DNA from: Oligoflexales bacterium
Lineage (GTDB): Bacteria > Bdellovibrionota_B > Oligoflexia > Oligoflexales > RGVZ01
Direction of reading: 5' to 3'
Length of the DNA stretch: 64,000 nucleotides
NCBI GenBank assembly: GCA_947494335.1
Contig: CANLUT010000001.1
Coordinates: forward strand, 1,248,026 to 1,312,025
The notes beneath the pieces were generated by a model. It saw only the letters and a list, made by a program, of their open reading frames with translations. It made no database searches and was not told the DNA's origin. The position numbers were made by a program, and so were the translations under genes. Below are positions 5,953 through 11,015 of this stretch, in pieces (position 1 is the stretch's first letter; every line of letters begins with the position of its first letter).

Positions 5953-6170
5953 TCTTACCTTCTGCGAGCTCCAAAACTCCTTTGACACCAGCGACTTAGA
6001 GCCTTTTCGGGCACTAATCCGCCATGTAATGATGCTCGGTTCAGCTTTAAAGTAACTTTAGCCCGGGGGTTGAATTAGGGCGTAACCATGTGTTAGTATT
6101 ATAAAAGTTAGCAAAAAAATTTTTGGTGATTTCTAAAGTTTTTGCGGGGTTACCCGAGGGGGCGCAACCG

Positions 6171-6767
6171 ATGGCTAAGGGGTTAGTCTCAAAGTTACTT
6201 TTGCCGGCCTTTATTATTTTTGCCAACGCCTGTGCGGGCACTCTCAATGTCCGAACAAACCCGAGTGAGGCGGAACTTGTACTGGTCCAACCGGGAAAAG
6301 TCGACTCCAAGCCGCTTGGTAAAACTCCCTACACTGCCAAAATCAGTGACCTGGGTTCTGCGGCTAATGGCGGACCCATCGTGCTGCAGGTCTCAAAAAA
6401 GGGCTTTATGCCGCAGAGCCTTTACATACCGAATGCCGCGGGCTCAAAACTTGATTTCGATGTGAATCTTAAACCAGTCAGCCCGGGTAGCTTTGATGAG
6501 ATGAATCGTATCATTAAACTGGTTTTGGCTGCCGAGCGACAAATCATGCTCAAACAAGTCGATGAAGCCATCAAGACAGCCGACGCGATCAAAGCGATCA
6601 ACGACAACATTGCCATGGCCTACGAAATTGAGGCGGCTGCTCAATTTGTCAAAGGTGATTTGCAAAAAGCACGTGTTGCTTGGAATCGGTCACTAGCGAT
6701 CGACCCGGAAAATCCCGATGCAGCGCGCATGATTAAAACTATCGACGAAAAGCTTGGAACTAAATAA
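6171..6767 (+). CDS. Secreted PEGA-domain / TPR protein
   Basis: 198-residue exported protein. I chose ATG 6171 because GAGGGGG lies just upstream and it gives a clean signal sequence ending at A-N-A-Cys; an earlier TTG at 6123 adds a non-hydrophobic extension. The Cys could be lipidated, but Asn at -2 makes the lipobox weak. After the signal comes a PEGA-like beta domain (GTLNVRTNPSEAELVL..., then GKTPY). The C-terminal half is helical, with one or two TPR-like units ending in a W-R/SLAIDPENP type motif. PEGA domains are usually found in envelope proteins that contact other surface components. It is followed 18 bases later by an outer-membrane protein gene, so the two are probably co-transcribed. 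Confidence 0.75.
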   Translation: MAKGLVSKLLLPAFIIFANACAGTLNVRTNPSEAELVLVQPGKVDSKPLGKTPYTAKISDLGSAANGGPIVLQVSKKGFMPQSLYIPNAAGSKLDFDVNLKPVSPGSFDEMNRIIKLVLAAERQIMLKQVDEAIKTADAIKAINDNIAMAYEIEAAAQFVKGDLQKARVAWNRSLAIDPENPDAARMIKTIDEKLGTK

Positions 6768-6785: not shown

Positions 6786-7436
6786 GTGAGTTATACCCAT
6801 AAAAACTGCCGAAAGATTGCGATTCGTGCTCTTGTGAGCTTTTCGGTCGCAACGGCGCTTATCACAGCTCGCCCCTCTATGGCTGCAAGTTTGGTGGGAG
6901 AATTCCACGACTCCCATGGGACACTCCGCTTTGGAACAATGAGCTACACTGTCACAGACGGCGCAACTCCCAAAGCCGGTGGGGGTATGGCCCTGAACTA
7001 TGAATACTCCAGACAGCTCAATATGAGTTCAGCACTCATCGTTGGATGGCGTCAGGTCACTGACTCTGCTAGTCAGCGCGACGGGCATCACGCGGCCTAC
7101 GCTGGCATGCGGATATTCCCGCTGGGACTAGGAATACCGCTCACGTCGTCAATTGGTGACGCAACAATCAGTATGGACAGCAGTTACAAATATTACGGAG
7201 AAGCCTCTCTGGGGCTTGGTCGCCTGCTCTATGAGCCCCAGGGCTCAGCTGATTTGTCGGGTGAAAGCCTTTCAATCACTTTTGGCGGCGGAGTATTAAT
7301 GCACTTCTTCTCGCGGTGGGGTGTGGATTTACAAGTTTTATACCACATAATTCAGGGCCGCGGAGGAACCGCAGAATCGATAGCTGTTTCCGGTAGTGGC
7401 ATATCGATTTTGATCGGAAACAGTTATTTGTTTTAG
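6786..7436 (+). CDS. Predicted outer-membrane beta-barrel protein
   Basis: 216-residue protein starting at GTG 6786, preceded by AAGG. The N-terminus is a Sec signal peptide with a likely cut after S-M-A-A. The mature part is made of alternating short amphipathic strands rich in Gly, Ser and aromatic residues (for example YYGEASLGLGRLLYEP) and ends in Y-L-F, the C-terminal aromatic expected of outer-membrane barrels. About 190 mature residues would suit a small 8-stranded barrel. No family was recognised. It sits between the PEGA/TPR gene and the carbonic-anhydrase-like gene (15-base gap), suggesting one envelope operon. Confidence 0.65.
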   Translation: MSYTHKNCRKIAIRALVSFSVATALITARPSMAASLVGEFHDSHGTLRFGTMSYTVTDGATPKAGGGMALNYEYSRQLNMSSALIVGWRQVTDSASQRDGHHAAYAGMRIFPLGLGIPLTSSIGDATISMDSSYKYYGEASLGLGRLLYEPQGSADLSGESLSITFGGGVLMHFFSRWGVDLQVLYHIIQGRGGTAESIAVSGSGISILIGNSYLF

Positions 7437-7451: not shown

Positions 7452-8405
7452 GTGGATATTAAGTTTAAAGGCTTCGATCAAATCACAGCCTGGGTGGGCG
7501 GAATCGGTATTTCCGCACTAATTTTCACGGGGATTTGGTACACCGGAAAAAATATTGCAAAGAACATCACCGCATCCGAAGAGAAACGACTTGAAAACGT
7601 GCAGAAAGATCTCGAGAAGCTTTCACTTGAACAGCAAAAGGCTGATACAGAAAAGTTAGAAACATCCGAGGCCAATTCTGAGAATAAATCAACGTCACAC
7701 CTCACCCCCGGTCAACCCATTGCTACCGAGGATAGGTGGGGATACAGCGGCAACCTAGCGCCATGGTACTGGGCCTCGATAAATCCCGAGTGGTCCAATT
7801 GTGGCTCAAAAGTAAACCAGTCACCAATTGATATCAGCGGCTCAAGGCTGGACGAAAAGCTCAAGACACTGAAGTTCAATTACAATCATGGTGAGGCCAG
7901 CCTCACATTACGTAACGCTACAGTTCAAGGCGACATTCAATCTGGAAGCTTCATAGAGTGGGATGGTGAGCGATTTGATCTCACGAGAGTCTTTTTCCGA
8001 ACTCCCTCTGAACACAGGGTTAATGGACTCCCATGGGAAATGGAAATTCAGCTTGAGCACAAATCAGCGCGCGATCAATTGCTCATGGTTTCCGTGCTCG
8101 TCACAACCGGCAAGTCCTCTTCGATAATTGCAAACGTTGCGGGCAACCTCCCCCGCTTTCGAGATGACATCAAGGACTTTTCCCAACTAAATTGGCATGA
8201 TTTGCTACCCGGAAAAAAAACCTACTGGAAATACCTCGGAACCTCGACAACGCCTCCTTGCGACCCCAATGTCACATGGGTGGTCATGACCGAACCTGTC
8301 ACCACAAAAGCCAGCGACATCGACCGATTCGTTAAAATACAGAAGTCAAATGTTCGTCCTGTTTTCTCTCTCGGTAAGCGCGCGCTCGGGCGAAGTAACC
8401 GCTGA
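7452..8405 (+). CDS. Alpha-carbonic-anhydrase-like protein lacking the zinc-binding histidines
   Basis: 317 residues from GTG 7452 with AGGAGAG upstream. Residues 14-30 form one membrane anchor, 40-70 a charged coiled coil, and 92-315 a full alpha-carbonic anhydrase fold: WGY, QSPIDI, TPSEH and TSTTPPC are all present. The three zinc ligands are not. Aligned on the FHFHTPSE and MExHxVH motifs of bacterial enzymes, His94 is Phe181, His96 is Arg183 and His119 is Gln200. The proton-shuttle His region is also changed. The fold and substrate-side Thr-Thr-Pro-Pro-Cys loop are kept, so this resembles the acatalytic carbonic-anhydrase-related proteins of animals. A binding or structural role in the periplasm is inferred. 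Its stop overlaps the start of the next gene (TGATG). Confidence 0.88.
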   Translation: MDIKFKGFDQITAWVGGIGISALIFTGIWYTGKNIAKNITASEEKRLENVQKDLEKLSLEQQKADTEKLETSEANSENKSTSHLTPGQPIATEDRWGYSGNLAPWYWASINPEWSNCGSKVNQSPIDISGSRLDEKLKTLKFNYNHGEASLTLRNATVQGDIQSGSFIEWDGERFDLTRVFFRTPSEHRVNGLPWEMEIQLEHKSARDQLLMVSVLVTTGKSSSIIANVAGNLPRFRDDIKDFSQLNWHDLLPGKKTYWKYLGTSTTPPCDPNVTWVVMTEPVTTKASDIDRFVKIQKSNVRPVFSLGKRALGRSNR

Positions 8406-9268
8406 TGGGAATCGCCTACCTTCTCTGCGCAGCCTGCCTTTGGGGCATGATCGGCCCCATCAGTAAAGTCGTTTTTGCCGCTGGGTTTACACCCCTTGAG
8501 ACAGCATTTTGGCGCGGAGTGATCGCTGGAATTGCATTCATCGTTCATTGGTTGTTTAAGCGTTATGACGTACCAACGGATCGTAAGCAAATTTTTGGTA
8601 TCACCGTCTTTGGGATCTTCGGCGTGGCGTTGCTCGAGGGCAGCTATGTTTATGCTGTACACTACGGCGGCGCTGCTTTGGCGTCGGTGCTGCTCTACAG
8701 TGCCCCCATCTGGGTGAATTTAGCGTCATGGCTCATCTTCAAAGAATCAATCCCCGCCAGGCGATGGATGGCACTCTCGATTACAATGCTCGGGGTGATT
8801 GGAGTTTGCTTTTGGGGCGCGACCGCAAAATTTTCAAGCGAGGCCATTTTTTGGGGGCTGATGTCTGGACTTAGTTACGCAGGTTTTTATCTAGCGGGAA
8901 AAATATACTTTGACCGCACCAATCCAGTTGTCGTTTATATGATTGCCTTTCCAGTAGGATCCATTGCTATTTGGCCATTTATGACGTCCGTTGCTGGATT
9001 ATCAACAGCAGGTCTTCTTGGTAATGTTGCTAACGCCGAACCTAGCACCGTCGGCGCACTAACCGCGATCGGACTTCTCTGTACCTATGTGGCGTACTGG
9101 CTTTACAGTAAAGGCCTACAGTTGGTTGACGCCGGTAAAGCCGCCATTATCACCATGATTGAACCGCTGGTTTCTGTGACTTTAGCTGCCATTATGTTCG
9201 GCGAAATGTTTTCGATTGCAGGCTACTTTTTTGCTGCGATGGTCATCTTGGGCGTCACCCTGGCGTGA
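8405..9268 (+). CDS. EamA/DMT-family transporter
   Basis: 287-residue, very hydrophobic protein with about ten transmembrane helices in two EamA repeats (N-terminal AACLWGMIGPISKVVF; second half around LMSGLSYAGFYLAGK and the late MIEPLVSVTLAAIMFGE motif). This is the drug/metabolite exporter superfamily; the substrate cannot be read from sequence. ATG 8405 overlaps the stop of the carbonic-anhydrase-like gene, so translation is probably coupled and this is the last gene of the 6.1-9.3 kb operon. The next gene is convergent. Confidence 0.9.
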   Translation: MGIAYLLCAACLWGMIGPISKVVFAAGFTPLETAFWRGVIAGIAFIVHWLFKRYDVPTDRKQIFGITVFGIFGVALLEGSYVYAVHYGGAALASVLLYSAPIWVNLASWLIFKESIPARRWMALSITMLGVIGVCFWGATAKFSSEAIFWGLMSGLSYAGFYLAGKIYFDRTNPVVVYMIAFPVGSIAIWPFMTSVAGLSTAGLLGNVANAEPSTVGALTAIGLLCTYVAYWLYSKGLQLVDAGKAAIITMIEPLVSVTLAAIMFGEMFSIAGYFFAAMVILGVTLA

Positions 9269-9881: not shown

Positions 9882-10943
9882 TTAGTCTCTCAAAAAATGG
9901 CAGGTATAACCGTTCGGATTTTTCTGCAGATAGTCTTGGTGATAGTCTTCCGCAGGCCAAAAGGTACCGGCCTTTTCAATCGCGGTCACGACAGGCTTTT
10001 TCCATTTACCGCTTTTATCTGTGAGCTCGATACGACGTTCGGCAACTTTTTTCTGAACGTCATCATAAAAGAAAACAGCAGAGCGATACTGGGTGCCTAT
10101 ATCATTACCTTGGCGATTCATGGTCGTTGGATCGTGCATGCGGAAAAAGAAGATCAGCAGATCGTCGTAACTGGTTTTTTGGGGATCAAATAAAATTTGC
10201 ACAGCCTCAGCGTGACCGGTGCGGCCAGTTTTTACGTCTTCGTAACGAGGAGATGTACCAGAGCCCCCGGTGTATCCCACCTGAGTCTGAACAACCCCCT
10301 TAATGCCGCGAATTATTTCTTCCATGCCCCAGAAGCAGCCACCTGCAAGCGTTGCCACCTCCAGTCCCGCGGGAATTTTTTTAGCAAAATCACCGATGAC
10401 GTTGTTTGACACTTCAGACCTCTCTTTCTTAATCGGTTCCACCGACATAAACAGCTTTTTATAGTCTCCGTAACCTTCCGCGTCTAGTTTTTCAGTCGGG
10501 ATGAAGCGGAGTGATGCCGAGTTCACACAGTAACGCCTGCCCGTGGGCTTCGGTCCATCATCAAAAAGGTGTCCTAAGTGCGACTCACCATGCTTGCTGC
10601 GAATCTCGGTTCTAACCATGCCGTGGGAGCGATCCGGTCGGGTCACAATGTTGTTATCAACCAAAGGCCTGGTAAAGCTTGGCCACCCCGATCCTGAATC
10701 AAATTTATCGAGGCTAGAAAATAACGGTTCACCGGAAACTATGTCGACATAAATTCCTGGTCGTTTGTTGTTCCAATATTCATTTTCAAAGGGGCGCTCT
10801 GTAGCACCGTCCTGGGTCACCTGACACTGTAAGGGGGAAAGCTTTTTTTCGATTTCTGCGCGCGACGGCTTTTTCCATGCAGATCCACCAGCGAACGCAA
10901 CCGAGCCCATAATTGCCCACAAGATTATGCCTAAATGAATCAC
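9882..10943 (-). CDS. msrAB: Exported MsrB-MsrA fusion, peptide methionine sulfoxide reductase
   Basis: About 353 residues. I chose GTG 10943 because a perfect AAGGAGGT lies seven bases upstream and it places a Sec signal peptide (ending near V-A-F-A) at the very N-terminus; the longer frame from TTG 11003 would bury that signal. The MsrB domain comes first, with its catalytic Cys in [11 protein letters not shown]; the zinc CxxC pairs of many MsrB proteins are absent. The MsrA domain follows, with GGCFWGMEE and GTQYRSAVF. Together they repair both R- and S-methionine sulfoxide in secreted or envelope proteins. It is followed four bases later by the 2OG-Fe(II) oxygenase gene. Confidence 0.93.
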
Positions 10944-11015
10944 GGCCAGACCTCCTTGATGTCCCATCAAAGATTTCATGGCCGAGATCAGTTTGCAAAC
11001 CAAAATAAGGCCTAA

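Follow-up and report, generated by a model that had tools for sequence, protein, structure and literature searches.

The window (the whole stretch of 64,000 nucleotides of Oligoflexales DNA analyzed here) carries on its forward strand a gene for a membrane-anchored pseudo-carbonic anhydrase of 317 amino acids (7452..8405, +). Its frame is intact and opens with a GTG start codon preceded by AGGAG. Two genes lie upstream in the same direction. The farther one encodes a PEGA/TPR protein (6123..6767, +) with a weak PEGA match (E=0.0037). It is followed after 18 bases by a gene for a small protein (6786..7436, +), which the first-pass annotation called an outer-membrane protein (OMP) and for which Pfam and NCBIfam give no confirmed family; another 15 bases separate this gene from the pseudo-carbonic anhydrase (pseudo-CA) gene. 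Immediately downstream is a gene for an EamA/DMT-family transporter (8405..9268, +), the start of which overlaps the pseudo-CA stop codon by one base (TGATG). Farther along, an open reading frame on the opposite strand (9882-11003, -) resembles, by eye, a methionine sulfoxide reductase A/B fusion.

The N terminus of the protein contains an FDQITAW motif (from residue 8) and a transmembrane anchor (together 7473..7538, +). In the AlphaFold model, the one hydrophobic segment (residues 11-29) lies inside a single long helix (residues 9-72), a prediction in agreement with the membrane anchoring proposed in the first-pass annotation. Beyond the anchor, the sequence up to the predicted end of the helix at residue 72 forms a charged linker (7539..7724, +) that is poor in histidine (about 2%), whereas the linkers of intact anchored relatives are His rich (12-22% His). 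An alpha-carbonic-anhydrase (alpha-CA) domain follows (residues 95-311; 7734..8384, +), and the protein ends in RSNR (8391..8402, +), a tail common to the four orthologs described below and to proteins of a sister genus with the zinc-site triplet S-H-Q (SHQ proteins) but absent from an intact paralog. Within the CA domain, a run of eight A's (8213-8220, in the codons for GKKT) leaves the frame intact; by likeness to frame-split relatives, it is a possible slippage site.

Profile and fold both place the protein in the alpha-carbonic anhydrase superfamily. PF00194 (Carb_anhydrase) matches residues 113-300 (E=1.4e-24; 87.5 bits versus a cut-off of 27), and bacterial alpha-CAs rank first in a phmmer search of the PDB, with 6eki at the top (E=5.7e-41). 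The AlphaFold model, built on an alignment of 50 homologues, has a mean pLDDT of 90, rising to 96-98 in the domain. The domain superposes on 8w7x and 6im0 with a Z score of 32.8 and an rmsd of 1.3 over 220 residues, and Foldseek concurs, with TM-scores against bacterial CAs of 0.91-0.94 when scaled by target length.

The motifs QSPIDI, TPSEH, and TTPPC are all retained, and yet every zinc ligand has been replaced. Alignment with 6eki pairs QFHFHAPSEH with RVFFRTPSEH and EAHFVH with EIQLEH, so that Phe181 (TTT, 7992..7994, +) stands at the His94 position, Arg183 (CGA, 7998..8000, +) at the His96 position, and Gln200 (CAG, 8049..8051, +) at the His119 position. The proton-shuttle residue His64 is also gone (Ala here; Glu, Glu, and Gln in the orthologs), and the protein thus has neither the three zinc histidines nor the His64 of a catalytic alpha-CA. 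The gatekeepers Glu106 and Thr199 and the second-shell residue Glu117 are retained. Since the domain superposes well on bacterial alpha-CAs, the protein has kept its fold but lost its metal site, and it fits the definition of a CA-related protein (CARP; at least one zinc histidine gone, fold kept). The first-pass annotation had described a zinc-less alpha-CA homologue with exactly these three substitutions, and the alignment with 6eki confirms it. It had also named a sequencing error in the ligand codons as one thing that would overturn the claim. Such an error is excluded because orthologs in three other, congeneric genomes carry F-R-Q, M-R-Q, and Y-R-Q at the same positions. Loss of the zinc site in the window protein is therefore well supported.

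These orthologs, at 40-53% identity, were found in a search of 43 genomes of the order (G038, G037, and G034, in the order of the triplets above). The one from G037 (L001; Oligoflexales MAG CANILH010000023.1) was the sole ortholog recovered by a scan of a public genome collection; matches in phages were weak (22-28% identity). The window protein and its three orthologs form one clade (100/99 support), share the anchor motif (F/L)DQIT(A/G)W, and have 81 invariant domain positions. Across the four, position 96 is invariably Arg, and position 94 holds Phe (twice), Met, or Tyr. Synonymous divergence (dS) within this clade is saturated or nearly so, which makes dN/dS unusable there. Other close pairs of degenerate proteins are under purifying selection, with dN/dS values of 0.055-0.082 among the three SHQ proteins from the sister genus and 0.061 between a DHQ and an NHQ protein.

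Gene order around the orthologs singles out EamA as the only conserved neighbor. An EamA gene lies directly 3' of the pseudo-CA gene at all four ortholog loci, and among ten genomes of the family, an EamA ortholog (E below 1e-30) is confined to those with the pseudo-CA ortholog (4/4 versus 0/6). The first-pass annotation had placed the gene in an operon with the OMP and PEGA genes and had taken these as its functional partners. The adjacency stands, with the short gaps given above, but neither upstream gene is found at any of the three other ortholog loci, and the proposed partnership is not borne out. Of those three loci, one has pstSCAB upstream of the pseudo-CA gene, and the other two have an opposite-strand gene resembling a response regulator. 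The G034 locus reads pstS-pstC-pstA-pstB-pseudoCA-EamA, and 3 bases separate the pseudo-CA gene from each of its neighbors. Upstream pst genes also occur in G037 and G038, where two genes intervene. In the genome of the window, the distance between the pseudo-CA gene and the pstB ortholog is about 32 kb. Because pst is upstream in these three relatives, the pseudo-CA/EamA pair probably arose in a pst operon and then moved, judging from gene order. Other relatives, including the sister genus with its SHQ proteins, have no EamA neighbor at their loci. In that genus, the gene preceding the SHQ pseudo-CA encodes a long subtilase-family protein, a conserved partner in place of EamA; one such gene (L040, 6158-11817, -) encodes 1,568 amino acids with a weak bacterial Ig-like match, and the gene is also present in L039 and L038.

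A survey of 58 genomes of the phylum, together with three reference structures, gave 59 alpha-CA domains in all; a second fragment from G003 was left out. At least one zinc histidine is gone from 27 of the 59. Of these degenerate domains, 24 carry Gln at position 119, where nothing but Gln or His occurs; the remaining three (LHH, DHH, and QHH) have lost only position 94. That position is far more variable (F, M, Y, S, V, L, A, R, T, D, N, or Q), only His and Arg occur at 96, and Glu106, Glu117, and Thr199 are retained in nearly all degenerate members. Degenerate copies make up about half of the order's alpha-CA domains; bacterial acatalytic alpha-CAs, of which the first-pass annotation knew few, are not rare in this lineage. 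As a small control, seven of eight plasmid-borne alpha-CAs were H-H-H, the eighth being a frame-broken copy from S. meliloti. Degenerate copies are the only alpha-CAs in 16 of the 33 alpha-CA-bearing genomes of the order, including the ortholog-bearing G038, and a beta-CA is present in nine of these 16 but absent from the other seven; all surveyed genomes except that of the window are draft assemblies, in which the absence of a gene is weak evidence.

The distribution points to repeated, independent loss. On a maximum-likelihood tree from which the three ligand columns were omitted, and which has long branches and an unresolved backbone, 12 state changes are required, at least 6 of them forced by well-supported branches, so the count of losses is a range. 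The direction from intact to degenerate was assumed, since regaining histidines is implausible. A single origin of the 24 Gln119 proteins was rejected by the AU test (p about 1e-46), a value to be read with the long branches and the post hoc naming of the group in mind. Losses can also be seen locally. In genus g14, G014 and G017 are degenerate versus intact G015, G016, G018, and G019. In the window's own genus, the family of paralog L002 includes DHQ (G036) and NHQ (G038) proteins versus intact ones in G000, G034, G035, and G037, and a family of alpha-CAs with multiple transmembrane (TM) segments includes VHQ (G000), LHQ (G035), and HHQ (G036) versus HHH (G037). The VHQ protein (L003; G000:C4:278571-279251), a second degenerate alpha-CA in the genome of the window, is fused to several such segments. 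Taken together, the sequence data indicate that degenerate alpha-CAs are common in this lineage through repeated independent loss.

Parsimony places nine changes at position 119. A His codon can change by a single base in nine ways, two of which give Gln, and nine independent changes all ending in Gln would have a probability of about 1e-6 if all were equally likely. Human CA II with H119Q as its sole substitution keeps some zinc affinity and activity. A reasonable inference is that H119Q came first, tolerated as Gln partly replaces His, and that drift at position 94 followed. The HHQ protein L046 may be an intermediate on this route.

Anchors and loci of relatives bear on how such proteins arise. 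A (D/S/K)QxxAW motif plus a TM segment, a regular expression picked after inspection of N termini, recurs across the order, including in L002, the intact anchored paralog in the genome of the window (H-H-H, His-rich linker). We considered whether loss of linker histidines is tied to loss of ligands; the raw association is strong (Fisher p=0.00016, 26 proteins), but the tree offers only 2-5 independent contrasts and no support, which leaves the link a correlation. Many anchored CAs adjoin the same genes (HNH protein F1, ABC-2 permease F3, ABC ATPase F2, F4, and F5), with a gene set that varies by locus and an F2 class that lumps all ABC ATPases, PstB included. This HNH/ABC-2 locus is present in genomes with intact CAs (G013, G016, G019, and G022) and with degenerate ones (G007, G020, G027, G033, G039, G040, and G041). 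Since both kinds have the same neighbors, enzymes appear to have been converted to pseudo-enzymes in place. Two further degenerate alpha-CAs of about 505 amino acids, Y-H-Q (L050, 1889-3409) and S-H-Q (L051, 2114-3631) in G027 and G033, have neighbors that look MotA/MotB-like by eye. In four degenerate genes from two families (G027, G033, G014, and G017), the anchor and the CA domain lie in different frames (L090, 5058-6076; L098, 3376-4352; L096, 4197-5424, -; L097, 1-1060). Each has a run of A9-A10 located 13-41 bases 5' of the CA domain, and no other anchored-type gene has a run of at least nine A's at this place. The pattern looks like programmed slippage or frameshifting that would yield anchor-only and anchor-plus-CA products; the rival explanation is homopolymer indels, either real or due to assembly error.

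The first-pass annotation suggested that the protein may be a binding module in the envelope, and we regard a nonenzymatic envelope role as likely. More specifically, we favor, as a plausible but tentative reading, a conserved pseudo-enzyme that is anchored in the inner membrane, faces the periplasm, and serves as a binding or scaffold domain, with the EamA/DMT transporter as the most likely partner. The N-terminal anchor would hold the CA domain in the periplasm, presumably over the outer face of EamA, and the domain, without its catalytic zinc, would be retained for binding or scaffolding. It could stabilize or gate EamA or offer surface protonatable groups as a "proton antenna." We infer physical contact from the coupling of the genes. 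In support of a transporter-helper role, the gene pair in G034 sits in a transport operon, pstSCAB. Against it, the window gene is also only 15 bases from its upstream neighbor, making a joint transcript possible. Moreover, relatives at other loci, such as the SHQ proteins, lack EamA as a neighbor, which rules it out as a partner for the family as a whole.

Because those homologues keep the fold motifs all the same, the main rival to the transporter-helper reading is a stand-alone ligand-binding domain, the emptied cavity of which would bind an anion, a small molecule, or an envelope component, with EamA a mere operon neighbor. The Glu106, Glu117, and Thr199 frame of nearly all degenerate members and the restriction of position 119 to Gln or His suggest a pocket still in use. 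However, EamA has stayed adjacent in four orthologs while other neighbors were rearranged, and we consider this alternative somewhat unlikely. An envelope module formed with the upstream OMP and PEGA proteins would account for three closely spaced codirectional genes, and the long modeled helix could extend into the periplasm, but the absence of both genes from the three ortholog loci makes it improbable. We likewise doubt strongly that the protein, itself acatalytic, serves as a decoy for the cell's intact alpha-CA or regulates it negatively, whether by docking-site competition or by hetero-oligomer formation. The genome of the window does have a candidate target in L002, with the same type of anchor, but the 16 genomes with only degenerate copies, G038 among them, would often leave nothing to regulate.

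Two other explanations are very unlikely. Retention of Glu106, Thr199, and Glu117, together with the residual zinc affinity and activity of H119Q human CA II, could be taken to mean that the protein is still an enzyme, binding metal through other residues or performing different chemistry in the pocket; but all three ligands and His64 are gone, and with Arg at position 96 in every ortholog, the metal site has gained a positive charge. A neutral relic on its way out is similarly disfavored. Some degenerate copies elsewhere in the order are indeed split between frames, but here the frame is open in four genomes at 40-53% identity, the 81 domain positions, the anchor motif, and the RSNR tail are conserved, and dN/dS is 0.05-0.08 in other degenerate pairs.

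A wider proposal than the EamA partnership, and one that we hold more loosely, is that the order repeatedly turns anchored alpha-CAs, often in place, into pseudo-enzymes (H119Q, then free drift at 94) kept as transport or envelope accessory subunits. These would be an independent bacterial counterpart of the CARPs, with the window copy as a dedicated pseudo-CA/EamA pair of phosphate-operon origin.

Acatalytic alpha-CAs are on record from animals, and what they do there is still under debate. We found no bacterial ones in the literature searched, and a review of bacterial CAs makes no mention of them (PMC5746736). Intact and dead versions in close relatives, even within one genus, amount to a natural replicate experiment on noncatalytic CA roles, and the tight pseudo-CA/EamA pair offers a simple genetic system for testing the idea of a CA as a noncatalytic transporter helper. 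A caution also follows for annotation: in genomes of this kind, a carbonic anhydrase label based on a PF00194 match often belongs to a protein that is no enzyme.

Compared with known systems, the window protein is nearest to bacterial alpha-CAs (6eki from a hydrothermal vent, 8w7x, 6im0 from Persephonella, 4xz5 from Thiomicrospira, and 1kop from Neisseria), with which it shares the fold, the QSPIDI/PSEH/TTPPC motifs, and the gatekeepers (26-34% identity, rmsd 1.3-1.7). It differs from them in lacking the zinc ligands and His64 and in having an anchor with a long helix and an EamA partner gene. The intact anchored alpha-CAs of the order (L002 and those of G013, G016, G019, and G022) have the same QxxAW-plus-TM anchor and domain, some of them at the HNH/ABC-2 locus, but they keep the H-H-H triad and His-rich linkers. 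Dioscorin, a plant alpha-CA-like storage protein, shares the fold (Z 30.0; sequence E=1.1e-24) but is soluble. Finally, animal CA VIII, X, and XI and the cnidarian CARPs have likewise lost zinc histidines while keeping the fold, with recurrent loss and the same preference for Gln at 119; an R-H-Q triplet recurs in cnidarians (PMC4981384). Work cited in that paper reportedly revived human CARPs by putting the missing histidines back. CARP VIII, X, and XI reportedly boost transport by the lactate transporter MCT1 without catalysis (PMC6609565), and the kind of help suggested above for EamA follows what is proposed for them. In contrast to these, the window protein is membrane anchored and predicted to be periplasmic, with F-R at positions 94 and 96. 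The bacterial proteins likely arose independently of the animal CARPs; the nearest relatives found, in the PDB search and in the tree of domains from the phylum with three reference structures, are bacterial.
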